A stretch of DNA of 64,000 nucleotides from Prolixibacteraceae bacterium (lineage in GTDB: Bacteria; Bacteroidota; Bacteroidia; Bacteroidales; Prolixibacteraceae). A program made the translations under genes and the position numbers. Shown in pieces: positions 37,493 through 63,061 of this stretch; the first letter of the stretch is position 1, and every line of letters starts with the position of its first letter. The notes below the pieces were generated by a model. The model searched no databases. It worked only from the letters and a program-made list of their open reading frames with translations, and was not told the origin of the DNA. The stretch spans positions 26,352-90,351 of the forward strand of contig JABGRN010000005.1 in the NCBI GenBank assembly GCA_018648265.1. The letters run 5' to 3'.

Positions 37493-37504
37493 ACTATAAA
37501 AAAT

Positions 37505-39536: not shown

Positions 39537-39625
39537 GAGTTCGTTTTTAACAGAAAATAATGAAAACTTTGAGGGGCTTTGTTACATCTTTAAGTTCCAT
39601 CGTGGTTAAACTTAAACAAACTAAA

Positions 39626-41107: not shown

Positions 41108-41131
41108 CAGTAATTCATTCTGCTGTCCGTC

Positions 41132-41190
41132 ATGCTGAATTTATTTCAGCATCTTTTACCAATGGATGGATTCCGAATCAAGTTCGGAAT
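41132..41190. repeat. Double palindrome between two sulfatase genes
   Basis: ATGCTGAA (41132-41139) pairs with TTCAGCAT (41145-41152), and ATTCCGAA (41170-41177) pairs with TTCGGAAT (41183-41190). The layout GTCATGCTGAA, spacer, ATTCCGAA with TTCGGAATGAC, is itself flanked by GTCAT/ATGAC. It looks like a dispersed bacterial palindromic element that could act as a processing or partial termination site inside the operon. Confidence 0.6.
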
Positions 41191-41233
41191 GACCAGCAAT
41201 TGAAATGAGGAAAAAAAGATAAAACATCAAATT

Positions 41234-42847: not shown

Positions 42848-42853
42848 TCGCAG

Positions 42854-44338
42854 ATGAACCAAATGTTAAAACAATTTCTGCTAGCAGCTTTACTCGTATA
42901 TATTTCGGGATGTACACAAATAAAAACAACAGAAACTGAGAAACCAAATATTCTGCTTATTGTGGTTGACGATCAAGGTTATGCAGATTTTGAACCTTTT
43001 AAAAACCACCGGCCTGAGATCTCAACACCAAATATGAACAGGCTGGCAGAAACCGGAATGATTTTTACACAAGCCTACACTTCTGCGCCAGTTTGTAGTC
43101 CGTCGCGAGCTGGGCTAAACACCGGAAAATTCCAATTTCGCTGGGATGCAAAAGCCAGTTGGAACCCCGGATTGCCTGATGAAACCAAAACGATTGCCGA
43201 ATATTTGAAAGAAGCAGGTTACACAACTGCCCGCATTGGGAAAGCTGATTTTGGAACAAACTACCATAAATTTGACGTACGGGAGCATCCGCTAAATCAC
43301 GGTTACGATTATTTTTTAGGATTTAGTGCACATGCTCACGATTACTGGTTATTGTCTGATGAAATGGCAAAACGAACTCCAGACCCAAACGGACACAGTG
43401 CGCACCTCGGTCCCTTAATGGAAAACAAAGGCTACAAAAGTTATGAAGATGGATACATCACAAATATTTTTACCGATGAGGCAATTCAGTATTTAAAAAC
43501 GGAAAAGGGCGAACCATTTTTTCTCACATTAAGTTATAACTCCGTTCATCATGTAATTCACGAAGTTCCTCAAAAATATCTCAACAAATTCGATGTTGCC
43601 CCGATTCATAATTACGAGCCGGATAGCATGGAAACTTTTGGTAATCGTAAACCGGGTTCGTATTCTGCTTATTACGAAAAATATACGCGTCTGGGTGCAA
43701 TTAACGATGAGGATATGCGAAAATTTTATTTGGCAAATCTAAATTGTCTGGATGATAATATCGGTCGGGTTTTAGATGCTTTAAAAGAGGAAGGATTAAA
43801 TGAGAATACTTTAATAGTTTTTGTTTCAGATAACGGGGGCTCACCTTTAACTGCAGCAAACAACAGTCCTTTAACTGCTGGCAAATATTCTTTATGGGAA
43901 GGTGGAATTCGTGTGCCAATGGCAATTAGCTGGCCGGGTAAAATTCAAGCTGGCACGGTTCAAAATGAATACGTTTCAGCTTTGGATATTTTGCCAACAT
44001 TGGTTGAAGCGGCGGGTGTTGAAATATCTGATTCAATTATGGATGGAACTAGCTTGCTTCAGCCGGACCAAAATCGATTACTTGTTTGGCGTTGGATGGA
44101 TTCATGGGCAGTTCGAAAGGGTGAGTTTAAACTTACCAATATGTACTACGAACATGGGAAAGGTCGTGTATCAAATCAAATTATTCCTCCAATTCATGAT
44201 GATAATTCACTTAAATTATTTAATGTGAATAACGATCCTGGCGAGAGAATTAATCTTGCTGAAAGTATGCCTGAGAAATTGAAAGAATTACAAAATGAAT
44301 ATGAAAACTGGTTAATTGAAAACTCAGGAAAGTATTAA
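42854..44338 (+). CDS. S1 formylglycine sulfatase, lipoprotein (3)
   Basis: This 494-residue lipoprotein sulfatase has lipobox YISGC (Cys20). The formylglycine site is Cys81 in SAPVCSPSRAGLNTG. Metal-site motifs are IVVDDQGYADFEPF and FVSDNGGSPLTAANN, followed by the GGIRVPMAISWPGKI segment typical of arylsulfatase A-like enzymes. It is part of the long enzyme operon. The GH2 gene begins 23 bases downstream. The cleaved position is not predictable without subfamily assignment. Confidence 0.94.
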   Translation: MNQMLKQFLLAALLVYISGCTQIKTTETEKPNILLIVVDDQGYADFEPFKNHRPEISTPNMNRLAETGMIFTQAYTSAPVCSPSRAGLNTGKFQFRWDAKASWNPGLPDETKTIAEYLKEAGYTTARIGKADFGTNYHKFDVREHPLNHGYDYFLGFSAHAHDYWLLSDEMAKRTPDPNGHSAHLGPLMENKGYKSYEDGYITNIFTDEAIQYLKTEKGEPFFLTLSYNSVHHVIHEVPQKYLNKFDVAPIHNYEPDSMETFGNRKPGSYSAYYEKYTRLGAINDEDMRKFYLANLNCLDDNIGRVLDALKEEGLNENTLIVFVSDNGGSPLTAANNSPLTAGKYSLWEGGIRVPMAISWPGKIQAGTVQNEYVSALDILPTLVEAAGVEISDSIMDGTSLLQPDQNRLLVWRWMDSWAVRKGEFKLTNMYYEHGKGRVSNQIIPPIHDDNSLKLFNVNNDPGERINLAESMPEKLKELQNEYENWLIENSGKY

Positions 44339-47310: not shown

Positions 47311-47329
47311 ATTTCCTCCCTTCAAAAAA

Positions 47330-49933
47330 ATGGAAAAAGTGAAAATAAAATACTACCTGAAAAATAGAATATTTCAATCGATTCAAAGAGCTGCAATTAT
47401 TATTGTAATGACAATTGTTCCATGTGCTTTTGTTTTTTCAAGTGAAACAATAATACGCGATGGAGTAAAAGGAATTTGGTTTGGGCCGAACGAACATGAT
47501 ATTGGGTTTCATCGATTAAATGCATCCTGGATTTGGGCAGATGAGAAATTGGACGCGAAAGCCATACTTACTAGGCGAACTTTTACTCTCGGAAATGGAT
47601 TTGAAGGGGTACTTCTTAGAATAACAGCATCATCACAATATCAACTTTACGTTAATGGCGAATATGTGTGTCGGGGACCAGCACGTTGTGCTCCTCATCA
47701 TCAGTCATACGATATTCTTGATATTACAGAAATGCTAAAAGTCGGAGAAAATCTAATTGCAGTTCGTGTACATCACCAGGACGGAAAACATTCTTATCAA
47801 TACAAAGGAAGATCAGGATTACAAGCTCAAATATCCTTTGAGCAGGGTAATGTCATGGGTTTTATTTTTAGCGATACAAACTGGAAAGTAATACCTGACC
47901 CATCGTGGGACAACAATGCCCCAAAAATAAGTCGTTTTCAACAAGTGGTAAATGATAGAGTAGATTTTAGAAAGTACTTAAAAGGATGGACTACCTTAGA
48001 TTTTAATGATAGTAATTGGAGTGATGCTACTGAATTAATGCGCAAAAATGGTTGGCCTGCTCCTCAAAAAAATGCCAAAGCACAATCTTTAATTCCTCCG
48101 TGGACTTCGCTTGTTGCACGAGACATTCCGTATTTAATTGAAAGGGATTTAACAGCAGAAAAGCTAATTGAAGCTGTTCAGATAAAAGCCTCAATTGTAG
48201 AGAAAACACATACTCTTTCCGAAGAAATTAGAATAAAACAAAACAATGAAAAACCATTGGAAATACCCGCTTCTTCAGATTCAAAATCATGGCTTCTGAT
48301 TTACGATTTTGGTGAAGTAATAAATGGAATGCCAAAGCTCGATATTCAGGGAAAAGAAGGCACTGAAGTTGAAATTGTTACAGCACCTTTTATGGTTGAT
48401 AAGCAGTTCACTCACAAAACTGTTGATTCTGAATTTCGGGATAAAATTATTTTGTCGGGAGAGAGAGACAAATGGGAAGCAACTTATTTTAAACCTACGC
48501 GGTATTTGGGAATTATTGTAAAAAACAAAGAGACATTAAAATTATTCTCGGCAGGAATTCATCAAATTAAATATCCATTTGAAAGGCGTGGACATATGAG
48601 TTCGACAGATGCACCCTGGATTAAAGATTACTTTGAAGCTTCAGCAAAAACAATAAATGTATGCACCACCGATGCATACACTGATAATTATCGCGAACGC
48701 CGCCAGTATGCGCAAACCAATTACTACGCAGCTCTTGGCAATTATTATGTTTTCGGGGATTTGGCATTGCAACGTCGTTACTTAATTCAGGTGGCGCAAG
48801 AGCAATTAGCGAATGGAATAATGCCTGCTTATGCACCTGCTGCTACCGATGATTTTATGATTATTTTAGACTCAAATTGCCTTTGGATAAGGGGACTTCA
48901 TAATTATTATATGTATTCGGGTGATGAAAAAACTGTTCGTGAATTACTCCCGGCTGCTAAAAAATTAATGGACTTACTTCATAGTTTTACTTATGACCTT
49001 TATTTTATCGATAATCCTCCGTATGCTTATTGGCTCGACCACAGTATAAATGATAGAAGAGGCACAAATTTATGTTTGAATGGTCATTATTTTGGAGCCT
49101 TAAAAGATTATGCAGAAATTCTCGGTTTCCTGAATATTGACAACACTGAAGTAGAATACCAAAAAGAAGCAGCTCATCTCTCTTTCGGGCATTTTTGGAA
49201 CGAGGAAAAACAGTTGTTTGCCGATGCCATAATTGATGGGAAACGTTCGCAAATGTTTAGTGAGCATGGAAATGCAATGGCACTTGCAATGAAAGGAGCA
49301 CGGATAAAAGAAGCCGAGCAGGTTGCCAAACAATTGCTCGCCGATGATAAACACGATTATATGAAACGCGAATCGGGAATAACTATGGTAACTCCTGCAA
49401 TGTCGTATTTCTTACACAAAGGACTTTGTGAATATGGTTTTGTTGATGAATCGTTTGAACTTTTCCGCCGGCGTTTTGATAAGATGCTGGATGAAAACAC
49501 CAACCAAACTTTATGGGAAGAATGGTGGTTGGATGGAACCGGTAGAACCGGGAAATTTCAAGGAGGTCGTACACGCAGCGATGCACAAACAGAAAGTGCT
49601 TTCCCGCCAGCTTTGTTTGCTGAATATCTTATAGGTATTCAAATAACAAAACCTGGCATGAAAGAAATACTGATTAAAAAGACACAAGCAAGTTTAAAAA
49701 ATATAGAAAGTATTATTCCAACACCTGAAGGTGATTTACATGTAAAATGGAATTTTAGCGGAGGAGAATTGGAATTGGTAATCCCGGCAGAAATGGTTGT
49801 AAAACTGGATTTAGAATCATTGGATATTTCGGATACAACGGGAGTAAAATTGGATGGGAAAGTGTTGGATTCAAAATCTGTTTCTCAACAATTTGTAAGC
49901 TTGTTAAAAGGTAAACATAAAATAGAATTTTAA
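47330..49933 (+). CDS. Alpha-L-rhamnosidase (GH78 type)
   Basis: This protein of about 867 residues has a hydrophobic leader (RAAIIIVMTIVPCAFVFS). An N-terminal beta-sandwich (LYVNGEYVCRGPARCAPHHQSYDILDIT), a second beta domain, an (alpha/alpha)6 barrel and a C-terminal beta domain follow. Rhamnosidase landmarks are DNYRERRQYAQ (general-acid region), the QTLWEEWW motif and the closing LIGIQITKPGMKEILIKK. It should release terminal alpha-linked L-rhamnose, which points to a rhamnose-bearing polysaccharide. The usual SHA-like stretch after the E-x-W motif reads RSDAQTESA, so this is a divergent member. An upstream ATG at 47288 would overlap the GH2 gene and gives no leader, so the start at 47330 is preferred. 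Confidence 0.88.
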   Translation: MEKVKIKYYLKNRIFQSIQRAAIIIVMTIVPCAFVFSSETIIRDGVKGIWFGPNEHDIGFHRLNASWIWADEKLDAKAILTRRTFTLGNGFEGVLLRITASSQYQLYVNGEYVCRGPARCAPHHQSYDILDITEMLKVGENLIAVRVHHQDGKHSYQYKGRSGLQAQISFEQGNVMGFIFSDTNWKVIPDPSWDNNAPKISRFQQVVNDRVDFRKYLKGWTTLDFNDSNWSDATELMRKNGWPAPQKNAKAQSLIPPWTSLVARDIPYLIERDLTAEKLIEAVQIKASIVEKTHTLSEEIRIKQNNEKPLEIPASSDSKSWLLIYDFGEVINGMPKLDIQGKEGTEVEIVTAPFMVDKQFTHKTVDSEFRDKIILSGERDKWEATYFKPTRYLGIIVKNKETLKLFSAGIHQIKYPFERRGHMSSTDAPWIKDYFEASAKTINVCTTDAYTDNYRERRQYAQTNYYAALGNYYVFGDLALQRRYLIQVAQEQLANGIMPAYAPAATDDFMIILDSNCLWIRGLHNYYMYSGDEKTVRELLPAAKKLMDLLHSFTYDLYFIDNPPYAYWLDHSINDRRGTNLCLNGHYFGALKDYAEILGFLNIDNTEVEYQKEAAHLSFGHFWNEEKQLFADAIIDGKRSQMFSEHGNAMALAMKGARIKEAEQVAKQLLADDKHDYMKRESGITMVTPAMSYFLHKGLCEYGFVDESFELFRRRFDKMLDENTNQTLWEEWWLDGTGRTGKFQGGRTRSDAQTESAFPPALFAEYLIGIQITKPGMKEILIKKTQASLKNIESIIPTPEGDLHVKWNFSGGELELVIPAEMVVKLDLESLDISDTTGVKLDGKVLDSKSVSQQFVSLLKGKHKIEF

Positions 49934-49937
49934 AGTT

Positions 49938-52223
49938 ATGAGTGTAACTACTCGTTATATAAATCGAATCTGGTCTATTTTTGTTTTGTGTTTGGCAATG
50001 GTTAACATTACGTCAGCCCAAATTAGCCAAAATCTGGAAGCGGAAGCAGCAACATTAAAAGGAACCGCTGAAATTGTTACTTGTAATAATGCTTCCGGTG
50101 GGCAAATGGTTAAAGGACTTGACAATGGCGCTGCAAATTCATTAACATTTCAAAAAGTGAATATTCCAAAAGCTGGCGATTATTTTATTTCTGTTAGTTA
50201 TTACTCGGTGAATGAAAGAAGTATGACCTATCAGATAAATGATCAGCCTGCGCAATCAACAACAGTTTCAACAACCGGTTCGTGGTGTTATCAGGGAGGT
50301 ATTCCGGGGGCTTTTATTTTCAAAATAAATTTTGCTGAAGGAGACAACGATTTGCAGTTTTATGATTCTCCGATTATCGATAAAATAGTGATCTTAACAG
50401 ATACAACAGCCCGAAAAGCTTCAGCCATTTACATTAGTTCTTTAAAGGGCAACGACAGTAATGATGGATTAACTCCTGAAACGGCATTTCAATCACTTGC
50501 AAAAGTTAATTCCCTGGATTTGTTGCCGGGAGATTCACTGTTTTTTAAATCGGGTGAAACTTTTGTTGGAGAGTTGGCGATTATTAACGAAAGTGGTTCT
50601 TCTGAAAAACCGATTCTAATAAGTAATTACGGTGAAGGAAATCTGCCCGTTTTAGATGGCGATGGTTATTTGTCAACGGTTCATGTGGTAAACAGCGGCT
50701 ACCTACATTTTTCAAATATTGAAATAAAAAACGATGGTGGTCCCTCGAAACAAGGTGTATCGGAGGATTTGCGTTACGGTATGTTTTTGGAAAATACCTT
50801 TACCGACGGGACTTTTTTTGAAAATTACCGCCTTCGTAATTTGACTTTTAATAATATTTTTCCAACCACAGAAGTAACCGACGACGATAACACCGGAGTT
50901 AATGCGCATGCTATAATTACAAGTGGTTCGTGGGGCGACGATGTGCATCCTACCCGTTTTAGGGATATACTGATTGAAAACTGTTTTTTTACCCGAACAG
51001 CAAGGCACGCAGCGGTTTTTAAAGCCATCGACAGTTTGAAAATAAGGAATAACTTATTTGAACATGTAGGTGGTGCTGGAATGGTAATCAGTAATAATTG
51101 TACAAATATTCTGGTTGAAAGAAATGTGACCAATTTCACCGGTTCAAAAATAGATCCCCGAATGGCTGGCCGGGGAAGCGGAATCTGGTGTTACAGAAGT
51201 AAAAACCTGACCGTTCAACACAATAAATTTATGCATGCCCGGGGAATTCACGATTCGTATGGAATGCACATTGATATTGGAAACCGGAATGTAGTTTATC
51301 AGTACAATTACAGCGAAGACAACGAAGGTGGTTTTGTAGAAATTTTAGGAGAAAATGTAAATGTTGGCTACCGCTATAATTTGAGTGTTGGCGATGGTTG
51401 GCGAAAAAGAGGCAACCGGTTTGGGCAAATTTTCTGGCTTGCAGGTTGGTCGGGCGACTGGCAAAATCCGATTGGGTCAGATAGTATATTTATATACAAC
51501 AATTCAATTTATGTTCGCGATACAATTGCCCCCGGAATCTGGATTGAAGAGGTTTCTAAAAATGCCAGGATTTACAACAATATCATTAAAGTATCTAATG
51601 AATTTGGATCGGTAGTTATTAAAAACAGTGCCAGTTTAAACGACTTCGATAACAACATTTGGTTTGGAAATATCCCAATTATAGATGAGGATGGCCAATC
51701 GTACAGAGGTGCAAATGCAATGACTTCAGATCCAATGTTTGTCGATGAAATCGTAATTGACTCTTCAGGATTTGTATTGCAAGATGAAAGTCCCGCAATT
51801 ATTTCGGGTAAACTTATTTATAATTCTGAATTTTCCTCATCGAGTGATTTTTTTCATAATAATGGAGGGTTGGATTATTTTGGAAATGCAGTTTCCTTTT
51901 CGCAAAGACCAAATATCGGTGCATTCAATACGAAACCTCTTGATACAGGTATTATTAAAGATTTTGATCTGGAACAGTCTCTAAACATCTATCCAAATCC
52001 TTTGCAAAATAAACAACTTCTTTATATTGAATTTTCACCACATATTAATGTTCAGAACCTGACAATTCAAATAGTTGATATTATCGGGAAATTGAGGTCT
52101 GAAAAATCGTTTCAGCAACAAAACAGAATCAGATTAGAAACAGGTTATTTAACACGCGGAATGTATTTTATTAGATTAAAAACAAGTGATTTCTGTTGGT
52201 CTAAACAATTATTGGTACTTTAA
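49938..52223 (+). CDS. Secreted right-handed beta-helix protein with CBM-like and T9SS sorting domains
   Basis: This 761-residue protein has a signal peptide (about 1-27, ITSAQ), a CBM6/35-like beta-sandwich (about 30-155, EAEAATLKGTAEIV) and a parallel beta-helix (about 160-640) that begins YISSLKGNDSNDG. It ends in a type IX secretion sorting domain (about 680-761, LNIYPNPLQNK to QLLVL). The sorting domain means export and surface attachment by T9SS. It shares GRGSGIW, MHID, DN-GGFVEIL and the YRYN-S-DG region with the two other beta-helix proteins of the operon (53616 and 60241). Such folds include many polysaccharide lyases and hydrolases, but I cannot place it in a known family. It is a candidate backbone-cleaving enzyme. 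Confidence 0.85.
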   Translation: MSVTTRYINRIWSIFVLCLAMVNITSAQISQNLEAEAATLKGTAEIVTCNNASGGQMVKGLDNGAANSLTFQKVNIPKAGDYFISVSYYSVNERSMTYQINDQPAQSTTVSTTGSWCYQGGIPGAFIFKINFAEGDNDLQFYDSPIIDKIVILTDTTARKASAIYISSLKGNDSNDGLTPETAFQSLAKVNSLDLLPGDSLFFKSGETFVGELAIINESGSSEKPILISNYGEGNLPVLDGDGYLSTVHVVNSGYLHFSNIEIKNDGGPSKQGVSEDLRYGMFLENTFTDGTFFENYRLRNLTFNNIFPTTEVTDDDNTGVNAHAIITSGSWGDDVHPTRFRDILIENCFFTRTARHAAVFKAIDSLKIRNNLFEHVGGAGMVISNNCTNILVERNVTNFTGSKIDPRMAGRGSGIWCYRSKNLTVQHNKFMHARGIHDSYGMHIDIGNRNVVYQYNYSEDNEGGFVEILGENVNVGYRYNLSVGDGWRKRGNRFGQIFWLAGWSGDWQNPIGSDSIFIYNNSIYVRDTIAPGIWIEEVSKNARIYNNIIKVSNEFGSVVIKNSASLNDFDNNIWFGNIPIIDEDGQSYRGANAMTSDPMFVDEIVIDSSGFVLQDESPAIISGKLIYNSEFSSSSDFFHNNGGLDYFGNAVSFSQRPNIGAFNTKPLDTGIIKDFDLEQSLNIYPNPLQNKQLLYIEFSPHINVQNLTIQIVDIIGKLRSEKSFQQQNRIRLETGYLTRGMYFIRLKTSDFCWSKQLLVL

Positions 52224-52249
52224 ATAATTAGATTTTAAAATTATAATAA

Positions 52250-53611
52250 ATGATAAAAACACTATTAACATCAATTGGCATTTTGGTTGCACTTGTTTCT
52301 TGTTCAAAACCTGAAACGATTATTGAACGATCAAAAAAACCAAACATCATCTATATTCTTGCTGATGACATGGGAGTTAAAGATTTGGGTTGTTACGGAC
52401 AGCAATTGATTAAAACTCCCAACATTGATAAAATGGCTTCCGAAGGAATGCGTTTTACACAATATTACGCCGGAAGTACTGTTTGTGCACCATCGCGAGG
52501 CACTTTAATGACCGGAATGCACACAGGGAATGGCTATGTAAAAGGTAATTTTGCCATGGAAAACGAAGGTAATTTACCACTACCCGAAAAAACCGTAACA
52601 GTTGCAGAATTGCTAAAATCGTCAGCTTACAAAACCGGTGTTATGGGAAAATGGGGATTGGGTGGCCCAAACGACCACGGGCATCCTAATAATCAGGGAT
52701 TTGATTATTCTTATTGTTATCTCGACCAACGTTTAGCCCACGAGTATTATCCCGATCATTTGTGGAATAATTTTGAAAAAGTTGTTTTGAATAATCAATA
52801 CACTCATGATATTTTTGCTGAGGAAGCATTGAAATTTATCTCTGATAGTAAAGACATTCCATTCTTTTTGTATTTGCCTTTTACTATTCCCCATGGGAAA
52901 TTTCAGATTCCGGATGATTCGCCTTATTCAAACGAATCGTGGACAAGCAATCAAAAAAATTATGCAGCAATGATAACTCGAATGGACAAAGATATTGGCC
53001 GGATTTTTTCTTTGCTCGATTCTCTGGAATTGGATGAAAATACAGTTGTTTTTTTTGCCAGCGACAACGGGGGAGTAAAAGGAATGAGTGATTTTTTTGG
53101 AAGTAACGAATCATTCAGGGGTTATAAAACTGATCTTTACGAAGGAGGAATTCGGGCACCATTAATTGCACGATGGCCGGGAAAAATTACGGGAGGTACT
53201 ATCTCCGAACACGTTTCGGCATTTTGGGATGTGTTACCCACGTTTTGCGAGATTGCCGGAATTCATTCACCTGAAAATATTGATGGGATTTCATTTCTGC
53301 CAGCACTTTTAAATCAGAATCAAAATGAACATGATTTTCTGGTTTGGGAATATTTCCATTATAACTACAGTTGGAAACCAGGGTCTGAAAATGCGCGTAA
53401 TTATTTGTTAAGTCAGGCTGTGAGAATGGGAAACTGGAAAGGTGTTCGAAATAACATTAAGGATAATCAGAATGAATCAATTGAATTATTCGATCTCATT
53501 AAAGATGGAGGAGAACAAAATAATGTAGCTGAACAATTTCCCGAAATTGTGCTTAAAATTCAACAAATTATGGAAAGCGAACACAAAGATTCAGAGTACT
53601 TTAAAAAATAA
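52250..53611 (+). CDS. S1 formylglycine sulfatase, lipoprotein (4)
   Basis: This 453-residue lipoprotein sulfatase has lipobox LVSC (Cys18). The formylglycine site is Cys79 in STVCAPSRGTLMTG. Metal-site motifs are ILADDMGVKDLGCYG and FASDNGGVKG, and YEGGIRAPLIARWPGKI is arylsulfatase-like. The CAPSR variant and the MHTGNGYVKGN stretch separate it from the three CSPSR enzymes earlier in the operon. It is followed after 4 bases by a beta-helix lipoprotein gene, so the pair is translationally close. Confidence 0.94.
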   Translation: MIKTLLTSIGILVALVSCSKPETIIERSKKPNIIYILADDMGVKDLGCYGQQLIKTPNIDKMASEGMRFTQYYAGSTVCAPSRGTLMTGMHTGNGYVKGNFAMENEGNLPLPEKTVTVAELLKSSAYKTGVMGKWGLGGPNDHGHPNNQGFDYSYCYLDQRLAHEYYPDHLWNNFEKVVLNNQYTHDIFAEEALKFISDSKDIPFFLYLPFTIPHGKFQIPDDSPYSNESWTSNQKNYAAMITRMDKDIGRIFSLLDSLELDENTVVFFASDNGGVKGMSDFFGSNESFRGYKTDLYEGGIRAPLIARWPGKITGGTISEHVSAFWDVLPTFCEIAGIHSPENIDGISFLPALLNQNQNEHDFLVWEYFHYNYSWKPGSENARNYLLSQAVRMGNWKGVRNNIKDNQNESIELFDLIKDGGEQNNVAEQFPEIVLKIQQIMESEHKDSEYFKK

Positions 53612-53615
53612 GATA

Positions 53616-55157
53616 ATGCGACAAATAGTATTTTTGACAATAATTATTTCATTTTTTTCGTGTTCAAATAAAAACATTTTTTACATCGATGCAGAAACCG
53701 GGAACGATTCTAATTCCGGACATTTACAAAAATCTGCCTGGGCAAGTCTTGAAAAAGTAAATCAAACACTTTTTCGACCCGGAGATAAAATTCTGTTTAA
53801 GGCAGGCAACTCTTGGAATGGACAACTTGAGTTACAGGGATGTGGAACCGCTGAATTACCCATTTCAATCAACAAATACGGAGAAGGGAAAAATCCTGCA
53901 ATTCATGGAAATGGCAAAAAACTCCACACTGTACTTTTACACAATGTTGAATACATGGAAGTGCGCAATCTGGAAATCACAAACACCGGAAAAGAACAAG
54001 TTGCAAAGCGCCGAGGAGTGATTATTTCGGCCGAAAATTTTGGCGATTGCAATCACATTGTTTTAGATAGTTTGGAAATTCATCATGTAAATGGCAGCCT
54101 TGTAAAAAGCGATGGCGGTGGAAGTGCAATTATTTGGCAGAACCGTGGCGATTCAATAAAAACCCGGTTTATTGATTTACAAATTACAAATTGTCATCTC
54201 CATCACTGCGGGCGAAATGGAATTAACTCGCGTGGTTACACCAATCGAAAAGAGTGGCATCCAAGTTTAAATGTAGTCATTAGAAATAATTTATTGGAGC
54301 AAATTCCAGGCGATGGAATTGTTCCAATCGGAACAGACGGAGCATTAATCGAACACAATGTTATGCGCGATTGCCCCGATGTTTTGTCGCATAAAGAGGC
54401 CGCTGCCGGAATCTGGCCTTGGAGTGCTGACAATACTATCATTCAATTTAACGAAGTTACGGGTCATAAAGCAAAATGGGACGGGCAAGGTTTTGATTCG
54501 GATTGGAATTGCCAAAATACAATCATTCAATATAATTACAGCCACGATAATTATGGCGGGTTTCTGCTGGTTTGCAACAACGGCAGCAACGTGAACACCG
54601 AGCGAAATATTGGCACCACAAATACTATCATTCGCTACAATGTAAGTATTAACGACGGGATTCGTCCGTACAAAACTACCCGCCGCGATTGGTTTGCACC
54701 AACCATGCATATTTCAGGGCCAGTTGAAAACACCCAGATTTATAACAACGTTTTTGTTATTCCTGAAAAACAAATAGCTGAAAACGACCGTACAATTGTT
54801 GAAATGGATAATTGGGGTGGGCCGTGGCCAAAAAACACCTTGTTTGCCAACAACATTTTTTATATTGATGAAAAAGCTGATTTTTATTTTGAAGGAGATA
54901 TTGGTACAAAATTTACAAATAACTGTTTTTATGGTGAATTTGAAAACCTGCCTGAAGATCCGGCTGCCATTTTTGAAGACCCACAGTTTGAAAATGTTAC
55001 AGCTTATGGAGAAGGCTTTGAAGTTTTAAAAAATTTTATGCTAACAAAATCCTCACCTTTAAAAGATAAAGGAATACCATTATTCAATAAACAAGGAAAG
55101 GATTTGTTTGGAAATTCACTGGATAGTAAAATAAGTATTGGAGTTCACGAATTCTAA
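53616..55157 (+). CDS. Right-handed beta-helix lipoprotein (A)
   Basis: From the chosen start (MRQIVFLTIIISFFSC, Cys16) this is a 513-residue lipoprotein. Directly after Cys comes the shared opening FYIDAETGNDSNSG and then FRPGDKILFKAGNSW, followed by a parallel beta-helix to the end. It has GIWPW, QGFDSD, DN-YGGF, and RYNVSINDG corresponding to the motifs of the two sister proteins, but is the most divergent of the three. An ATG at 53547 lies inside the preceding sulfatase gene and gives no leader. The enzymatic family is not recognised. The operon context suggests action on the same sulfated glycan. Confidence 0.85.
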   Translation: MRQIVFLTIIISFFSCSNKNIFYIDAETGNDSNSGHLQKSAWASLEKVNQTLFRPGDKILFKAGNSWNGQLELQGCGTAELPISINKYGEGKNPAIHGNGKKLHTVLLHNVEYMEVRNLEITNTGKEQVAKRRGVIISAENFGDCNHIVLDSLEIHHVNGSLVKSDGGGSAIIWQNRGDSIKTRFIDLQITNCHLHHCGRNGINSRGYTNRKEWHPSLNVVIRNNLLEQIPGDGIVPIGTDGALIEHNVMRDCPDVLSHKEAAAGIWPWSADNTIIQFNEVTGHKAKWDGQGFDSDWNCQNTIIQYNYSHDNYGGFLLVCNNGSNVNTERNIGTTNTIIRYNVSINDGIRPYKTTRRDWFAPTMHISGPVENTQIYNNVFVIPEKQIAENDRTIVEMDNWGGPWPKNTLFANNIFYIDEKADFYFEGDIGTKFTNNCFYGEFENLPEDPAAIFEDPQFENVTAYGEGFEVLKNFMLTKSSPLKDKGIPLFNKQGKDLFGNSLDSKISIGVHEF

Positions 55158-55161
55158 AAAA

Positions 55162-56835
55162 ATGAACATAAAAATTATTCTGCTACATGTTATTCTTTTT
55201 CTGACTTCATGTTCAATTTCTAATAATAAGAAGACAGAAAAACCCAATGTTATTTTTATAATGTTAGATGATTTTGGGTATTCACAAATTGCGTATAACA
55301 GTGAAGAGATAAATGAAGGTGATTACGATCCACTATTTCTAAAATATACTCTAGAAAATGGAGATTATCAACCAGAACAAGCTCTGGAATTTTCAAGGCA
55401 AGCAACACCCACACTTTCACGAATGGCAAAAGATGGTGTAATTTTTACGAATGCTTTTGCTTCATCTAATTTGTGTGCTCCATCAAGAATTGGAATTGCT
55501 ACTGGCGTGCAACAAAACCGCTGGGGTATTTACCGGAATATCGATTGCGAAGCACACGGTCCGAAACCGGGAAGTCTGTTGGTTGAAAAACTTCACGATG
55601 CCGGTTATGCAACTGCACACATTGGTAAATGGCACATTGGTAGCCGCGACCAAAGAATGATTCCAAAGTTTATGGAAAAACATGGAATAAAAGATTCAGC
55701 AGATATTTATCCTCCACTCGGTAAATTTCCTGAAGTTCGTAAAGATTTAAACAAAAACGGTTACATGGGATCCTGCATTCCAGAACATCATGCATTAAAT
55801 AACGGTTTCGATTATTATTACGGTTATAACACTTGGGAAAGCCCTTTTTACAATGCTACAAACGTTTGGAATGGTTTTGAATTTGCAGGTAAAAATCCAA
55901 AATACAACACTGATTTATTTACTGATTTAGCTATTAATTTTATTGATGAAAATATTGAAAAGGAAAAACCCTTTTATGTGCAACTTCATTTTCATGCGGT
56001 TCATTCACCCCTTGAACCAAAAGCTCCTGAAGAATATTTCAACAAATTCGATTCTGAATCATTCATTTTGAATAATTTTTATGCCCATGTTTTAGCTGTT
56101 GATGAAAATATTCGGCGGCTCGAAAATTATTTAAAAGAAAAAGGATTGGCAGAAAATACAATCATTGTATTTACGTCAGATAACGGTGGTTCAATTGGCG
56201 GTCGGTCAACAATGCCAGGCAATGCCCCTTTTCGTGGTCACAAGGGAATGCATTTATTGGGTGGCATAAAAGTTCCACTTTTTTTCTATTGGCCGGAAGG
56301 AATTTCAAATCCTGAAAAAAATAATCAATTGGTTTCAGCTTTAGATATTTTACCCACTATTTTAGATGCGTCTGGAATAAATTCCCCGGAAAAGATTGAT
56401 GGGAAAAGTCTGTTGCCCTTTTTGAAAGACTCTTCAAATAAACCTGTTCACGATTATTTGATTTGGTCAGGAATTCATGCACGTACCTGGGGATTTATGA
56501 GGCAGAATAACGTTTACCCGGAAGTGGTTTCCCGCAACATGGCTCCACATGCCTGGGTGATTGTAAAAGATAATTATGCCTTGCGATATGTTGGTGAAAC
56601 CAGAAAGGGACTTTACAAAGATACCCCGAAAGGAAAATCGGCGTATTACGAAATGTACGATATAAAATCAGATCCGGGAGAAAGGAATGACTTACTAAAT
56701 ACGAAACCAGAAATGTTTCAGGAATTGAAACAAATTTGGGAGAAAGAAGCAAAACAGTATCCGCCACCATTTAAAATAGGAAAAGATAAGTGGGAACAAA
56801 TTATTCCTCAAAATAATAAGTACTTGAAAAATTAA
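55162..56835 (+). CDS. S1 formylglycine sulfatase, lipoprotein (5)
   Basis: This 557-residue lipoprotein sulfatase starts at the ATG 4 bases after the beta-helix gene (lipobox LTSC, Cys17). The formylglycine site is Cys105 in SNLCAPSRIGIATG. Metal-site motifs are IMLDDFGYSQIAYN and FTSDNGGSIGGRS. An insertion of about 45 residues (NEGDYDPLFLKYTLENGDYQ region) separates the DD motif from the Cys signature, longer than in the other four enzymes. It therefore probably attacks a different sulfate position or residue. The next gene begins 51 bases downstream. Confidence 0.93.
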   Translation: MNIKIILLHVILFLTSCSISNNKKTEKPNVIFIMLDDFGYSQIAYNSEEINEGDYDPLFLKYTLENGDYQPEQALEFSRQATPTLSRMAKDGVIFTNAFASSNLCAPSRIGIATGVQQNRWGIYRNIDCEAHGPKPGSLLVEKLHDAGYATAHIGKWHIGSRDQRMIPKFMEKHGIKDSADIYPPLGKFPEVRKDLNKNGYMGSCIPEHHALNNGFDYYYGYNTWESPFYNATNVWNGFEFAGKNPKYNTDLFTDLAINFIDENIEKEKPFYVQLHFHAVHSPLEPKAPEEYFNKFDSESFILNNFYAHVLAVDENIRRLENYLKEKGLAENTIIVFTSDNGGSIGGRSTMPGNAPFRGHKGMHLLGGIKVPLFFYWPEGISNPEKNNQLVSALDILPTILDASGINSPEKIDGKSLLPFLKDSSNKPVHDYLIWSGIHARTWGFMRQNNVYPEVVSRNMAPHAWVIVKDNYALRYVGETRKGLYKDTPKGKSAYYEMYDIKSDPGERNDLLNTKPEMFQELKQIWEKEAKQYPPPFKIGKDKWEQIIPQNNKYLKN

Positions 56836-56886
56836 TAGTCGTAATCCAATTTCGATAAAAGTCAAAAACATTCAAAAAAAACAACA

Positions 56887-59800
56887 ATGAAAACAACTTT
56901 TCAAAAAGAAATAAAGCTCATTATTCTTTTCATTTTGTTAACTGGTGGAAATCTTTTTGCACAAGTGAAAATGTATGAAGAGTCATGGATATTGCCAACT
57001 TATAAGGTGGAGCCAGCGGAAAAAGCACCTATGTTTTACACCGGAGAAAGTTTTCAGGGAGCGAGAAAAGTTATTTACCCTTATGCACTAAACGACGTAA
57101 TTTCGAATGAAAAGGAGGAGCAAGCATGGAAAGCTTTGTTGCTTGAAAATGAGTATATTAAATTATGTATTACTCCAGAGATTGGAGGAAAATTGTATTA
57201 TGCAACGGATAAATCAAACGATTATAATTTTATATATAAAAACAATGAGGTAAAACCTTCGAACATTGGAATGACCGGCGCCTGGGTATCAGGAGGGATT
57301 GAATGGTGCGTTTTACATCATCACCGGGCATCTACAATGCTGCCGATGGATTACAGTTTAGCTGAAAATGAAGATGGCAGCAAAACAATTTTTATTGGTG
57401 AAACTGAACCTCGTCACAGAATGAGATGGACTGTTGGAGTTACCGTTCATCCGGGCAAATCGTACTTCGAAGCAGAATTGTCGATTTACAATCCTACGCC
57501 TTATACCAACACATTTTTATATTGGGCCAATGTCGCAACGCATACCAATGAAAACTATCAGACCATTTTCCCACCCAGTGTTGATTTTGCAACCTTTCAT
57601 GCAAAAAATGAATTTACGCACTGGCCTATCTCGACAGAAGTATATAGAAATCAAGATTTCACCGAAGGAGTTGATATTAGCTGGTGGAAAAATGTAAAAC
57701 AATCAGCATCTTTTTTTGCACACGATTTGAAAGAGGATTTTATGGGTGGATACGATCATGGAACAAACAGCGGAACGGTTCATATCGGAGATCATAATAT
57801 TGTAAAAGGAGCTAAACTTTGGGAATGGGGATCAGGTCCTCGTGGACAAGCAACCGAGGGAAGATTAACAGAAACAAGCGGTCCGTATGTGGAAATAATG
57901 GTTGGAGCTTTCTCCGATAATCAGCCAGATTACACATGGATTAGACCGTACGAAGTGAAAACCTGGAAACAATATTGGTATCCGGTTAAAGATATTGAAG
58001 GATTTAAAAATGCAAATCTTGACGCGGCTGTTAATCTCGAACAGAGAAAGGATAATAAAGTTTTCCTTGGTTATCATTCAACTCAAAAAGTAGATAAAGC
58101 ACACATTATTCTTAAAAACGGGAAGAATATAATTTTTCAGAAAGATTTGCAGATTTCTCCGGAAAAAGCTTTTACCAAATTAATCGAAGTGGAGGGCTCT
58201 TACAATTTTACAGAACTTTACACCGAAATGATAGATACTGAAACCAACGAAGTGCTAATTTCATTTCAGCCGGTTGAAAAGAAACGAGCAGAAAAATTGC
58301 CCGAAGTTGTTGACAGACCTCCATTAACCGAAGATATTCCTACCGTTGAAGAACTTTACTTAACAGGTAGCAGAATGGAACAGTTTTATAAACCTTCAAT
58401 GAATTATTATGAAGAAGCCTTAAAACGTGATCCCACTAATATTCGATCTAATACAGCCGTTGGAAACCAGTTTCTTAAAAATGGCGATTTCAAAAAAGCA
58501 AGAAGTTATTTTACAACGGCAGCAAAACGAATAACACACGATTATACCAGGCCTTCTAATTGTGAGGCACTTTACTTGCAAGGATTAACACTTAAGGCAT
58601 TGGAACTTTATGATGAAGCTATCGATACTTTGTACCGGGCTACCTGGGACTACGCGTATCATTCAGCAGCTTATTTCGAATTGGCTCAGATTTCATGTAT
58701 AAAAGGAGATTTTGAAAAAGCACTTCATCAAATAAATGAATCGCTTTCGACCAATATGAAAAATACTCGTGCTATTGGTCTGAAATCTTCAATCCAAAGA
58801 AAGTTGGGTGATTTTGAAGGAGCTGCTCAAACCTTAGTAAATATTCTCAAAACCGACCCACTTAATTTTAGAATAGGAAATGAAGTTTATTTAATTGCAA
58901 AAGAATCAGGGAATGTACAGGAAGCAGAAAAAAAGTTGGTTTCGTTATCTAAGAAAATGAGGGATTTTGATCAGAATTACCTCGAATTAGCGGTTGGATA
59001 TTTAAACGAAGGAATGTTGGCTGAAGCTGAAGATATTTTGCTTCGTTATAATGGAAATAATCCAATTGTAAATTATTATCTGGGATATATTCAAGACAAA
59101 AGCGGCAACAACGAACGGGCTAAAAAATACTTCCAAATTGCACAAGGAATTTCGGAAGACTATTGTTTTCCATTTCGTTTAGAGACAATAAAAGTGTTGA
59201 AAAAAGCACTTGAATATAATAAGAATGATGGGAAAGCTAATTACTACCTTGGTAACATTTTGTACAACAAACAACCAGAAGTAGCCATCGAATATTGGGA
59301 AAATGCAGTAAAGAATGAGCCGGACTTGGCAATGGCATATCGAAATTTGGGATGGGGATATTATCGTCATTATAAAAATTTTGAAAAAGCGATTCCTTTT
59401 TATGAAACGGCAATTTCGTTAGATAATAGTAATGCAATCTTATTCACCGAACTAGACAGGTTATATGAATTAAATAATAGTCCGATTGAAACCAGATTAA
59501 AAACATTTGAAGGAAACGAACTTGTTGTTAATAAACGTGATGATGCATTTGTACGTCAAATATCTGTCCTGACTCTTGCCGGTAAACCTGATAAATCTGT
59601 AGAATATTTGAAGGACAAAGTATTTAGTTATCGCGAGGGGAATTCAAGAGTTCGTGAGGTAATTATTGATGCACAATTATCTTTGGGAAGACAGTATTTA
59701 GCCGATAAGAATTATCAAAAAGCATTGGATCATTTTCTATTGGCTCAGGTACCAGACGAAGAAGCGGGTAGTGCAAGATCTGGTAACAGGGATATACAGG

Positions 59801-60213
59801 TGAATTATTTTATTGGTCAAGCTTACGAGGCGTTAAATAAAATGAGAAAAGCAAAAGACTTCTATAAATTGGCAACAGTTGCCGAAGCTTTAAATAGACC
59901 TGGAATAATGAGTTATTATCAAGGATTAAGTTTTCTGGAATTAGATAATAAAACAAAAGCCAAAGAGATTTTTGAAGCCTTAATTGAAAATGGAGATAAG
60001 ATAATCAACAAAAATATTGAAAATGAAGGTGACTTTTTTGCAATTTTTGGCGAGCGGGAGGATGAAAACACAAGGAATTCGCAAGCTTATACTTTAAGAG
60101 GACTGGGAAATAAAGGGCTTGGCAAAACGGTTCAGGCCAAAGAAGATTTGAAAAAAGCAGTTGAATTGTCGGTGAGTAATTTGTGGGCGAATACAGAATT
60201 AACGGAATTATAA
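56887..60213 (+). CDS. DUF5107-TPR exported protein
   Basis: This 1108-residue protein has a signal peptide (about 1-25, GGNLFAQ). The N-terminal DUF5107 domain is a beta-rich, mutarotase-like sandwich (about 60-370) with the conserved stretch ITPEIGGKLYYATDK and VSGGIEWCVLHHHR. A long array of TPR repeats runs from about 480 to the C-terminus, ending AKEDLKKAVELSVSN-type helices. Proteins of this make-up are recurrent in Bacteroidota glycan loci. The sandwich with His/Glu/Trp-rich surface is compatible with sugar binding or catalysis. The TPR part suggests a scaffold for other locus enzymes. No established activity is known to me. Confidence 0.88.
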   Translation: MKTTFQKEIKLIILFILLTGGNLFAQVKMYEESWILPTYKVEPAEKAPMFYTGESFQGARKVIYPYALNDVISNEKEEQAWKALLLENEYIKLCITPEIGGKLYYATDKSNDYNFIYKNNEVKPSNIGMTGAWVSGGIEWCVLHHHRASTMLPMDYSLAENEDGSKTIFIGETEPRHRMRWTVGVTVHPGKSYFEAELSIYNPTPYTNTFLYWANVATHTNENYQTIFPPSVDFATFHAKNEFTHWPISTEVYRNQDFTEGVDISWWKNVKQSASFFAHDLKEDFMGGYDHGTNSGTVHIGDHNIVKGAKLWEWGSGPRGQATEGRLTETSGPYVEIMVGAFSDNQPDYTWIRPYEVKTWKQYWYPVKDIEGFKNANLDAAVNLEQRKDNKVFLGYHSTQKVDKAHIILKNGKNIIFQKDLQISPEKAFTKLIEVEGSYNFTELYTEMIDTETNEVLISFQPVEKKRAEKLPEVVDRPPLTEDIPTVEELYLTGSRMEQFYKPSMNYYEEALKRDPTNIRSNTAVGNQFLKNGDFKKARSYFTTAAKRITHDYTRPSNCEALYLQGLTLKALELYDEAIDTLYRATWDYAYHSAAYFELAQISCIKGDFEKALHQINESLSTNMKNTRAIGLKSSIQRKLGDFEGAAQTLVNILKTDPLNFRIGNEVYLIAKESGNVQEAEKKLVSLSKKMRDFDQNYLELAVGYLNEGMLAEAEDILLRYNGNNPIVNYYLGYIQDKSGNNERAKKYFQIAQGISEDYCFPFRLETIKVLKKALEYNKNDGKANYYLGNILYNKQPEVAIEYWENAVKNEPDLAMAYRNLGWGYYRHYKNFEKAIPFYETAISLDNSNAILFTELDRLYELNNSPIETRLKTFEGNELVVNKRDDAFVRQISVLTLAGKPDKSVEYLKDKVFSYREGNSRVREVIIDAQLSLGRQYLADKNYQKALDHFLLAQVPDEEAGSARSGNRDIQVNYFIGQAYEALNKMRKAKDFYKLATVAEALNRPGIMSYYQGLSFLELDNKTKAKEIFEALIENGDKIINKNIENEGDFFAIFGEREDENTRNSQAYTLRGLGNKGLGKTVQAKEDLKKAVELSVSNLWANTELTEL

Positions 60214-60240
60214 TTTTTAAAAATGATTAAAGTAACAAGT

Positions 60241-61887
60241 ATGAAACATCAATCTAAAGTACTTCTAATTGTATTTATTGGAGTATTAATTTTTTCAGCA
60301 TGTTCGAACAAAGAACCGAACTTAAAGACTTTCTATGTAAACAGCATTTCGGGGAACGACGTTAACGATGGTACAAACCATGAAACAGCATGGAAAAGCC
60401 TGGAGCGTGCCAGTGAAAATATTTATAAACCGGGAGAAAAGCTATTCCTTTCAAATGGCGTAACTTTTAAAGGAAAGCTAAATCTTAAAGGAGGTGGGAG
60501 CAAAGAATCTCCGGTAATTGTTTCAGGTTATGATTCGGGTGATGGGAATAAATCATTCCCTGTAATAAATGCAAAAGGTTATGTTGCAGGAATTCAAATT
60601 CAGAATGGCAGACATTTTATTATTGGCAAACTTGAAATTACTGCCGATGCCGGAGATTTGGCAGAACCTGAAGCTCAAAACAAAAGATACGGCGTTTATA
60701 TTAGTGCGAACGAACCCGGAGAATATTCAAACATTCATCTGCACGATTTGCACATTCATCATATTTTTGCAAGCGAAAATATTCAAAAAGATGGGGCGAA
60801 AGCAACATCAAATATAGGCTACGGAATTTATGTGCAGATGCAAAATAAAGAGGCTAAAATAAAAAACATTAAAATCGATTATTGCAACATTGAAATGACC
60901 GGGCACACTGGAATTCGCTTAAATGGTGCTGGCGACGAAACTGGCCGCGTTTATTTAGACAGTATTACCATTGAAAACAATTACCTGAAAAATATTGGCG
61001 GGCCGGGAATGGTTCCCGGAACATGCGAAAATGTTGTTGTTCGTGGAAATGTTACCGACCACACCGGTTCTTCAATCGACGCAAGAATGCATGCCCGCGG
61101 GAGTGGAATCTGGACATGGACATGTAATAATGTACTTATTGAAAAAAATAAATTTATGCATGCTCATGGGAAAGCCGACTCGCATGGTGCACACATCGAT
61201 TTTAACTGTAAAAATGTAGTGGTTCAGCACAATTTAAGTTTAGATAATGCAGGTGGTTTTGTTGAAATTTTAGGCAATAATCATAATTGTTGTTATCGCT
61301 ACAATATTAGTATTAACGATGGATTCAGGGTAAAAGGAGAAAATGGTGCAAGCCAGGAGGGCAAAGTTTTATGGACAAGCGGTTACGTTGGTCGTGGGAA
61401 TAAAAAAAATGGGCCTTATAATTCTTACATCTACAATAATACTGTTTTTGTAAAAGAAGGAAGTCGTTCTTGTTTCTCATTTACCCGAACTACTGAAGGA
61501 ATTTTAATTGCCAATAATATTTTTTATATCCAGGGAAAAACGGTTGATGTTTCTGGCGATCAGGATACGCAGGTGGAGGATAAAAATCGCACTATTGAAA
61601 ATGCAATATTCAAAAACAACCTGTTTCAGAAATCGAATATTCTTCCGGGGTCACTTATTATAAAAGATTCTGAGCCTCTGATTGGAAATCCAATGTTTAC
61701 AAATCCGGGTGGTTTAATTGCGGAAGATTATATTCCCCAAAACATGGATTTGATAAAAGACAAAGGAATAAAAATCGAAAAAATACCCGGCGATGAAATT
61801 GGGTTAACCATTGGGTTGGAAGTTGAATCAGACTATTTTGGAAACGCTATTTCAGGATTGCCGGATATTGGGGCAATTGAATTGTAG
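60241..61887 (+). CDS. Right-handed beta-helix lipoprotein (B)
   Basis: This 548-residue lipoprotein (MKHQSKVLLIVFIGVLIFSAC, then SNKEPNLKTFYVN) carries the opening GNDVNDG and a parallel beta-helix to the end. It is the closest relative of the T9SS protein at 49938. Both contain TGS-ID-RM-RGSGIW, NKFMHA-G, HID, DN-GGFVEILG and CYRYN/GYRYN-S-DG in the same order. A Met six codons upstream (60223) is possible but gives a weaker leader. One version is a lipoprotein and the other is exported by T9SS, so they may act at different sides of the outer membrane or at different steps. The family is not recognised. Confidence 0.85.
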   Translation: MKHQSKVLLIVFIGVLIFSACSNKEPNLKTFYVNSISGNDVNDGTNHETAWKSLERASENIYKPGEKLFLSNGVTFKGKLNLKGGGSKESPVIVSGYDSGDGNKSFPVINAKGYVAGIQIQNGRHFIIGKLEITADAGDLAEPEAQNKRYGVYISANEPGEYSNIHLHDLHIHHIFASENIQKDGAKATSNIGYGIYVQMQNKEAKIKNIKIDYCNIEMTGHTGIRLNGAGDETGRVYLDSITIENNYLKNIGGPGMVPGTCENVVVRGNVTDHTGSSIDARMHARGSGIWTWTCNNVLIEKNKFMHAHGKADSHGAHIDFNCKNVVVQHNLSLDNAGGFVEILGNNHNCCYRYNISINDGFRVKGENGASQEGKVLWTSGYVGRGNKKNGPYNSYIYNNTVFVKEGSRSCFSFTRTTEGILIANNIFYIQGKTVDVSGDQDTQVEDKNRTIENAIFKNNLFQKSNILPGSLIIKDSEPLIGNPMFTNPGGLIAEDYIPQNMDLIKDKGIKIEKIPGDEIGLTIGLEVESDYFGNAISGLPDIGAIEL

Positions 61888-61921: not shown

Positions 61922-63061
61922 ATGGAATTTGTGAAATTACTATTTAAGGTTTCTTTTGTTGTATTATTAATTTCATGCAAACAAGAATCAAAAACCATAA
62001 AATCCGACGAAATTTGGCTTGATAATAATGGCGTTCATATTAATGCACACGGTGGTGGAATGCTTTTTTACGACGGTAAATATTATTGGTTTGGCGAGCA
62101 CAAAATTGAAGGGGAAAAGGGAAATAAAGCGTGGGTTGGAGTTCACTGTTATTCATCGAAAAATCTGGTTGACTGGAAAGATGAGGGAATTGCACTTGAG
62201 GTGATTACAAACAATCCGGAACATGAAATTACAGAAGGTTGTGTTTTGGAGCGCCCAAAAGTGATTTACAATTCGGCAAGTAAAAAATTTGTAATGTGGT
62301 TTCATCTTGAATTAAAGGGGCAAGGTTACGATGCTGCACGTTCGGGAGTTGCCGTTAGCGACAAAGTTACCGGGCCATTTGAGTTTGTAAAAAGCTTTCG
62401 GCCAAATGCCGGTCGCTGGCCGTTGAACGTAAAAGAAATTCACAAACAACCTATTGCCGACGACGTTTTAGAAAAGTATTGCGGGGGAAAGGGTTGTTTG
62501 CCGGGACATCCCGATTCGGTTAATATTTTGGGGCGCGATTTTGAAGGCGGGCAAATGGCACGCGACCAAAACTTATTTGTTGACGATGATGGAACAGCTT
62601 ACCACATTTATTCTTCTGAGGAAAATAGTACACTTCATATTTCAAAATTAACAGATGATTATTTGTCTGACTCGGGAGATTTTATTCGGGTTTTTTCGGA
62701 TCGTTACATGGAAGCACCTGCAATATTTAAGAATAAAAATAAATATTTTTTGATTGCATCCGACTGTACCGGCTGGGCTCCAAATGCTGCACGAATGGCC
62801 TGGGCTCCAACAATTTTTGGCCCCTGGGAAGAGTTGGGGAATCCATGTTTTGGCGATGAGTCGAATCTTACTTTTCGCTCGCAAAGTACTTATGTTTTGA
62901 CTGTTTCAGGAAAAGAAAATGCGTTTATTTATATGGGAGATCGCTGGAACCCGGAAAACGCAATCGATGGTCGCTACATCTGGTTACCTTTTCAGTTTAG
63001 CGAAAATGGAATTCCAAAATTAGAGTGGATGGACGAGTGGAGTCTTGATTATTTTGATTAA
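61922..63061 (+). CDS. GH43 enzyme lacking the canonical base (exo-beta-1,3-galactanase-like)
   Basis: This 379-residue lipoprotein (LLISC, Cys19) has a five-bladed propeller. The first blade reads INAHGGGMLFYDGKYYWFGEHK instead of the usual catalytic-Asp blade. Glu110 (LERPKV), Glu264 (MEAPAIF) and Gln321 (RSQSTY) are placed like the Glu/Glu/Gln set described for GH43_24 exo-beta-1,3-galactanases, which lack the canonical base Asp. This suggests a galactan side- or main-chain exo-activity, but the subfamily is from motif memory only. GH43_34 or another base-less subfamily remains possible. It is the last glycan enzyme of the operon and lies 34 bases after the beta-helix gene. Confidence 0.82.
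   Translation: MEFVKLLFKVSFVVLLISCKQESKTIKSDEIWLDNNGVHINAHGGGMLFYDGKYYWFGEHKIEGEKGNKAWVGVHCYSSKNLVDWKDEGIALEVITNNPEHEITEGCVLERPKVIYNSASKKFVMWFHLELKGQGYDAARSGVAVSDKVTGPFEFVKSFRPNAGRWPLNVKEIHKQPIADDVLEKYCGGKGCLPGHPDSVNILGRDFEGGQMARDQNLFVDDDGTAYHIYSSEENSTLHISKLTDDYLSDSGDFIRVFSDRYMEAPAIFKNKNKYFLIASDCTGWAPNAARMAWAPTIFGPWEELGNPCFGDESNLTFRSQSTYVLTVSGKENAFIYMGDRWNPENAIDGRYIWLPFQFSENGIPKLEWMDEWSLDYFD

Follow-up and report, generated by a model that had tools for sequence, protein, structure and literature searches.

What cuts the glycan in a polysaccharide utilization locus (PUL) that encodes no recognized endo-acting enzyme? The question is raised by a stretch of 64,000 nucleotides (the window, on contig JABGRN010000005.1, here C44) from the 5.6-Mb genome of a Bacteroidota bacterium of the Prolixibacteraceae, probably marine and referred to below as G000. 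The window carries one PUL, at 29912 to 63061, and within it three genes for beta-helix proteins, BH1, BH2 and BH3, which a first-pass annotation had put forward as a candidate undescribed family of polysaccharide-degrading enzymes. Based on the GH136 fold and its catalytic acids, the sulfatase neighbours and a trimmed active site, we propose that the three probably degrade a sulfated polysaccharide, perhaps of algal origin, and we have good confidence that they are GH136-type glycoside hydrolases acting on such a substrate. The proteins and their functional elements are as follows.

49938..52223, + strand: BH1, a GH136-like beta-helix protein of 761 amino acids, exported by the type IX secretion system (T9SS), with an N-terminal CBM35-like domain
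50025..50396, + strand: CBM35-like domain of BH1, about residues 30-153 (Foldseek, phmmer)
51252..51275, + strand: catalytic pair of BH1 in HDSYGMHID, with D439 as predicted acid/base and D446 as predicted nucleophile (phmmer alignment to D568/D575 of ErLnb136)
51987..52220, + strand: T9SS type A sorting domain of BH1 (PF18962 4e-10, TIGR04183 5e-9)
53616..55157, + strand: BH2, a GH136-like lipoprotein of 513 amino acids (7v6m E 1.6e-38, 6kqs 1.3e-27)
54480..54503, + strand: catalytic pair of BH2 in WDGQGFDSD, with D289 as predicted acid/base and D296 as predicted nucleophile (phmmer alignment to D568/D575 of ErLnb136)
60241..61887, + strand: BH3, a GH136-like lipoprotein of 548 amino acids (AlphaFold2 model, 7v6m match)
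61177..61200, + strand: catalytic pair of BH3 in ADSHGAHID, with D313 as predicted acid/base and D320 as predicted nucleophile (phmmer alignment to D568/D575 of ErLnb136)

Judged by sequence, the mutual similarity of the three proteins is far above chance. Pairwise BLASTP over the whole helix gives 31% identity for BH1 and BH3 (E 4e-70) and 28% both for BH2 and BH3 (E 7e-48) and for BH1 and BH2 (E 6e-37), and all the motifs listed in the first-pass annotation are present, invariant or almost so, and follow one order: GND-N-G, PGD/PGE, GIW, D-x-x-G...(H-I-)D, DN-GGF and RYN-S-(x)DG. These motifs are largely kept in alignments of 17-19 sequences, whose invariant columns include GGF, R-x-N-x-S-x-x-D, the W of GIW and a pair of Asp spaced seven residues from each other. 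The genome has exactly three matches to the BH1-3 profile, all inside the PUL. The earlier view of one T9SS-exported protein with a carbohydrate-binding domain and two lipoproteins also holds up. In addition to its sorting domain, BH1 has an N-terminus that is CBM35 by fold (Foldseek to 2wz8: TM 0.81, root-mean-square deviation (rmsd) 2.0, 31% identity) and CBM35/CBM6-like by phmmer (2wz8, E 1e-4), and BH2 and BH3 have lipobox-like N-termini, FFSC and FSAC, read by eye. The three reading frames were confirmed at the coordinates given above; alternative upstream starts lie at TTG 53547 for BH2 and ATG 60223 for BH3.

Do the three constitute a family of their own? Sequence and modelled fold place them with GH136 instead. 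AlphaFold2 models were made for BH1 and BH3 (two of the three proteins), and both are right-handed beta-helices, as had been suspected (mean pLDDT 89 and pTM 0.89 for BH3; 81 and 0.71 for BH1). GH136 entries are the top solved structures for both models by Foldseek and by VIA-align; in the latter the BH3 model superposes on 7v6m with a Z of 34.7 and an rmsd of 2.6 over 454 residues, and the helix of BH1 (residues 160-664) with a Z of 33.0 and an rmsd of 2.7 over 448 residues. The next families, AlgE, PL6, tailspikes and GH28, align about 270-400 residues at lower identity, those with a Z of up to 30-32 aligning about 330-350, and absence of a family from such match lists does not exclude that family. 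Solved GH136 structures (7v6m, 6kqs, 5gqc) also rank first in phmmer for all three proteins, with best E-values of 1.6e-38 for BH2, which is the closest to characterized GH136, 7.9e-25 for BH3 and 3.1e-21 for BH1. The sole curated family with a specific match is the NCBIfam lacto-N-biosidase LnbX (NF047897), where BH1, BH2 and BH3 score 40.5, 70.4 and 43.4 bits (BH2 E 7.8e-20), far below the 2500-bit cut-off; Pfam gives a generic Beta_helix match or none, and a comparison with PHROGs gave nothing useful. The matches of all three to the GH136 catalytic domain, together with the best fit of both models to it, rule out a new family or fold. A characterized family has thus been found for these proteins, and not a characterized substrate: in the open-licence literature GH136 enzymes, known only as lacto-N-biosidases from the gut microbiota, have been characterized on milk- and mucin-type glycans alone, and no report of activity on a sulfated polysaccharide was found there.

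The novelty is the branch. BH1-orthologs form a clade of 7 rows and BH3 relatives one of 13 (support 100/100 each), both within a larger 27-row clade (100/99) marked by H replacing D at +5 ('HID'), while BH2 and its kin form a separate 9-row clade (99/98) that groups more weakly with solved GH136 (90/84). Since each protein falls into its own supported clade, the tree indicates that they are old paralogs and not recent duplicates. These clades lack Loop 1 of the known enzymes, have no visible GH136I partner and occur in PULs with S1 sulfatases. BH1-type genes are also found in Lewinella and Saprospiraceae, BH2-type genes in Proteiniphilum, Prolixibacteraceae, Flavobacteriales and, more distantly, KSB1 and Planctomycetota, and BH3-type genes in several Bacteroidota families; BH2 and BH3 occur together again at three loci (L001, L002, L003). 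A plasmid search returned distant matches alone, the best at 30% in Flammeovirga. A sister clade of BH1 (L010-L014, L099, L111), partly from uncultured Bacteroidota assemblies, carries AVWNW or AIWNY and DSHGIHVD or DSYGIHID and is mostly without sulfatases nearby. Phocaeicola plebeius DSM 17135, a gut bacterium, encodes a SusC/SusD-linked homolog with the catalytic pair present and no sulfatase nearby (L020:9998-11350), and Lachnospiraceae encode proteins of about 1560-1570 amino acids with a GH136-like domain (L018:9788-14470, L019:9773-14491), of which the L018 protein bears DNRLRE and choline-binding-like domains and by score is no lacto-N-biosidase.

What does the active site look like? 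ErLnb136 uses D568 as its acid/base and D575 as its nucleophile, with W548 stacking on galactose (PMC7335108). Both aspartates are present, at constant spacing, in 59 of 59 rows of an alignment of 57 homologs, BH1-3 among them, plus two solved GH136 taken from phmmer alignments. The segment singled out earlier as 'HID' or 'D-x2-G' holds this pair, and the idea of related beta-helix enzymes whose catalytic site is conserved is borne out. At the position of W548, BH2 and BH3 have W and BH1 has Y, with Y or F among BH1 orthologs. GH136 works by a retaining mechanism (PMC8106489) and, since its Asp pair is kept, a retaining mechanism is by analogy our best guess for BH1-3. Loop 1 (residues 330-341 of ErLnb136) is one of two loops whose shortening has been tied to a more open site in a fucose-tolerant GH136 (PMC7335108). 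The insert that holds it, 25 residues long in 7v6m and 6kqs, is down to 3-4 residues in BH1-3, and the remaining homologs all have 0-9; for Loop 2, the corresponding region has 28 residues in 6kqs and 18-20 in BH1-3 (the 7v6m row, where the stretch is missing, is uncounted). As Loop 1 is a wall of the GH136 pocket, its reduction should open the site of BH1-3 to larger substrates.

The surroundings speak to the substrate. The PUL runs, in order, HTCS, SusC/SusD, S1a, S1b, S1c, GH2, GH78-like, BH1, S1d, BH2, S1e, DUF5107-TPR, BH3 and GH43, the genes beside BH1-3 being these.

29912..33985, + strand: hybrid two-component regulator (HTCS; Reg_prop, HisKA, HATPase, Response_reg, HTH_18)
34373..39277, + strand: SusC/SusD-like uptake pair (Plug of a SusC-like TonB receptor, SusD_RagB)
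39560..44338, + strand: three S1-type sulfatases, S1a, S1b and S1c, each with CSPSR (PF00884, motif)
44362..47310, + strand: GH2 glycosidase, beta-galactosidase-like (best PDB match 5t98, E 1e-30)
47288..49933, + strand: GH78-like alpha-L-rhamnosidase, weak domain matches (PF17389 3e-15)
52250..53611, + strand: S1-type sulfatase S1d, between BH1 and BH2, CAPSR (PF00884 3e-55)
55138..56835, + strand: S1-type sulfatase S1e, between BH2 and DUF5107, CAPSR (PF00884 1.9e-57)
56887..60213, + strand: DUF5107-TPR protein, 1108 amino acids (PF17128 8e-56)
61922..63061, + strand: GH43 glycosidase (PF04616 1.7e-16)

At the level of Pfam the locus indeed lacks a recognized endo-acting enzyme: it offers five sulfatases, GH2, GH78-like, GH43, DUF5107-TPR and the SusC/SusD pair. 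GH43 can include endo enzymes. The C-x-P-S-R formylglycine motif is kept in all five sulfatases. The association of BH genes with sulfatases recurs elsewhere: a sulfatase lies within about 13 kb at 16 of 22 BH1-3 loci outside the window, against 6 of 27 loci of other homologs and none of the 11 loci of the DGGGFDLD clade (Fisher p 0.0006 and 0.0001, values that ignore kinship of the loci). In two genomes the BH genes are the sole recognized glycosidase candidates of a PUL, namely HTCS-SusC-SusD-S1a-S1c-BH1-S1d-BH3-S1 in G046 and HTCS-SusC-SusD-S1-S1-BH3 in G116. The DUF5107-TPR protein also stands beside BH2 in the sister genome G001, and no enzymology for it was found in the open-licence literature. 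At four loci a PF11790 (Glyco_hydro_cc) protein adjoins BH2 or BH3 genes (L002:4547-5908, L003:5617-6957, L009:7374-8243, L097:1889-2755); it is absent from the window and is a candidate endo-enzyme in the four PULs that have it. A 546-amino-acid protein beside BH3 in G002 (L098:8231-9868, - strand) has no Pfam or NCBIfam family match, and the S1e sulfatase of G001 (L094:13434-15103) lies in two frames, through a frameshift or an assembly error.

How might such a system operate? BH1-3 would act on a sulfated polysaccharide jointly with the five S1 sulfatases. Within each D-x6-D pair the first Asp would protonate the leaving sugar and the second attack the anomeric carbon, as in the two-step retaining reaction of LnbX and ErLnb136. 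BH1, with its CBM35 and type IX export, may cut first, extracellularly or at the cell surface; the lipoproteins BH2 and BH3 may then cut the products, before or after uptake by SusC/SusD, their cuts alternating with the sulfatases and with the exo enzymes GH2, GH78-like and GH43. A division of labour across the membrane, suggested already in the first-pass annotation, is plausible; an endo mode and the division of labour at the surface are our conjecture. That the substrate is sulfated is well supported by the context. A sulfated galactan is our working guess, with galactan-side clues in the GH2, which resembles beta-galactosidases, and in S1c, which resembles carrageenan 4-O-sulfatases (best match 6prm, E 2.5e-58); fucan, rhamnan or another sulfated glycan are alternatives, and the GH78-like gene of the window and a GH106 in G399 would fit a rhamnose side chain. 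We tentatively go further, at somewhat less than even chances, and suggest that BH1-3 have new specificities of the GH136 type, directed at a sulfated polysaccharide of galactan type. They would stand alone, with an open cleft and without GH136I, and would replace the usual endo-enzyme of such PULs. If so, SusC/SusD, sulfatases and GH136-like enzymes alone could depolymerize the glycan.

Several observations weigh against the main reading, that BH1-3 are GH136-type hydrolases of a sulfated glycan. The GH136 enzymes described to date depend on a GH136I domain or subunit to complete their active site (PMC7335108). There is no room for one in BH2 or BH3 and the larger open reading frames of the PUL all belong to other families, although no GH136I/LnbY profile was searched genome-wide; with none visible, BH1-3 may have a cleft of another construction, or may lack hydrolytic activity. 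The loci compared are not independent, several coming from one genus, and four BH-type loci (L008, L016, L100, L125) are without sulfatases.

The alternative that fares best, itself a version of the GH136-type reading, is that BH1-3 are exo-acting and release a saccharide or disaccharide from a sulfated galactan belonging to the carrageenans, standing in for GH127/GH129 and GH16/GH82, which we regard as rather unlikely. The case for it comes from the sister genome G001, where genes for DauA (6pnu, E 2e-148), a RhaT/DMT transporter, DauB (5olc, E 3e-171) and a DauC-like KDG-kinase stand beside GH2-GH78-BH1.

L093:7784-11494 (G001:C586): DauA-RhaT/DMT-DauB operon in the sister PUL

DauA and DauB handle anhydro-D-galactose in the carrageenan system of Zobellia, whose DauB is 5olc (PMC5698469); with these matches the anhydrogalactose operon took the place of a rhamnose catabolism, to which RhaT, MR/MLE and aldehyde dehydrogenase genes in G001 had seemed to point. 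In Saprospiraceae a DauB-type gene (56-59%) lies near BH1 at L005-L007, followed by S1b and GH2 at L005 and L006. The Dau trio or DauB alone recurs at these loci and in G047, G012 and G049. S1c matches kappa-carrageenan 4S sulfatases, and some carrageenan PULs are without GH127/GH129, the responsible enzyme still being sought. However, no DauB was found in G000 at E 1e-60, nor any close counterpart of DauA (the best match is an aldehyde dehydrogenase at 32% identity), which makes carrageenan itself, and the use of D-anhydrogalactose, unlikely; we thus rejected a carrageenan locus for the window although the sister has both genes. DauB is also present in G012 and G047, where no BH gene was found, and the GH78-like and GH106 neighbours suggest rhamnose. 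No GH16 or GH127 match was found on contig C44 (GH82 and GH129 were not searched for). A further point against this alternative is that GH127 genes occur elsewhere in nearly all the genomes compared; with GH16 almost as widespread, counts of the two per genome are uninformative.

There is a slim chance that BH1-3 are non-catalytic, glycan-binding proteins of the PUL, given that beta-helices also act as binding spikes and that no GH136I is seen; the retention of both catalytic Asp in all 57 homologs argues against this, as do the PULs with BH proteins as sole glycosidase candidates. Slimmer still is the chance that they are PL6/AlgE-type lyases or epimerases on a uronic-acid-containing polymer. 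In the structural comparison GH136 is followed by AlgE epimerases (Z 30-32) and PL6 lyases (Z 24-28). Their alignments, however, cover about 330-400 residues with 10-18% identity, where the best GH136 entries reach about 450 residues and 26-31%, and phmmer, which finds GH136, gives no lyase of note beyond 6kfn (E 0.0015); the conserved Asp-Asp pair at GH136 spacing speaks against them as well. That BH1-3 are true lacto-N-biosidases or host-glycan GH136 of the mucin or milk type is scarcely credible, for although LnbX is the best curated model and the catalytic pair is kept, the scores are 40-70 bits against 2500, Loop 1 is absent, no GH136I partner is seen and the neighbours are sulfatases, GH2 and GH78-like in place of GH112 and lacto-N-biose (LNB) transporters.

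GH136-type enzymes adapted to sulfated polysaccharides are the most likely identity of BH1-3. How do they compare with systems already described? The GH136 lacto-N-biosidases are LnbX of B. longum (5gqc), BsaX (7v6i), TnX (7v6m) and ErLnb136 (6kqs/6kqt), with which BH1-3 share a beta-helix of about 450 residues, the Asp/Asp pair seven apart, GIW with an aromatic residue at +2 and the motif order. They differ from them in a structure-alignment identity of 19-31%, the missing Loop 1 insert, a Loop 2 shorter than that of ErLnb136, the CBM35 and T9SS tail of BH1, and a setting in a Bacteroidota sulfatase PUL with no GH136I seen and not in a milk-oligosaccharide locus. The evolutionary origin of LnbX has been called enigmatic (PMC8106489); the present loci suggest that its relatives in Bacteroidota, in which the site is more open and no helper domain is visible, act on sulfated polysaccharides. 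Among other beta-helix proteins, PL6 lyases, AlgE epimerases, phage tailspikes and GH28 have the right-handed fold in common with BH1-3 and differ in a shorter alignment, 8-18% identity and other catalytic residues. With the carrageenan systems of Zobellia galactanivorans and Pseudoalteromonas (PMC5698469, PMC6923384) the window shares an S1_19-like sulfatase and GH2; the sister genome, unlike the window, also shares DauA, the transporter, DauB and the kinase, whereas the window contig has GH136-like genes where those systems have GH16 or GH127, and its genome lacks the Dau genes. BH1-3 are a possible missing depolymerase for sulfated galactans. A parallel by description is a PUL of a marine Bacteroidota, Winogradskyella forsetii, which its report calls 'enigmatic' and describes as likewise combining GH136 and sulfatases, its substrate not identifiable (PMC9723794); for PULs of this kind, with unnamed substrate, BH1-3 would provide concrete candidate enzymes.

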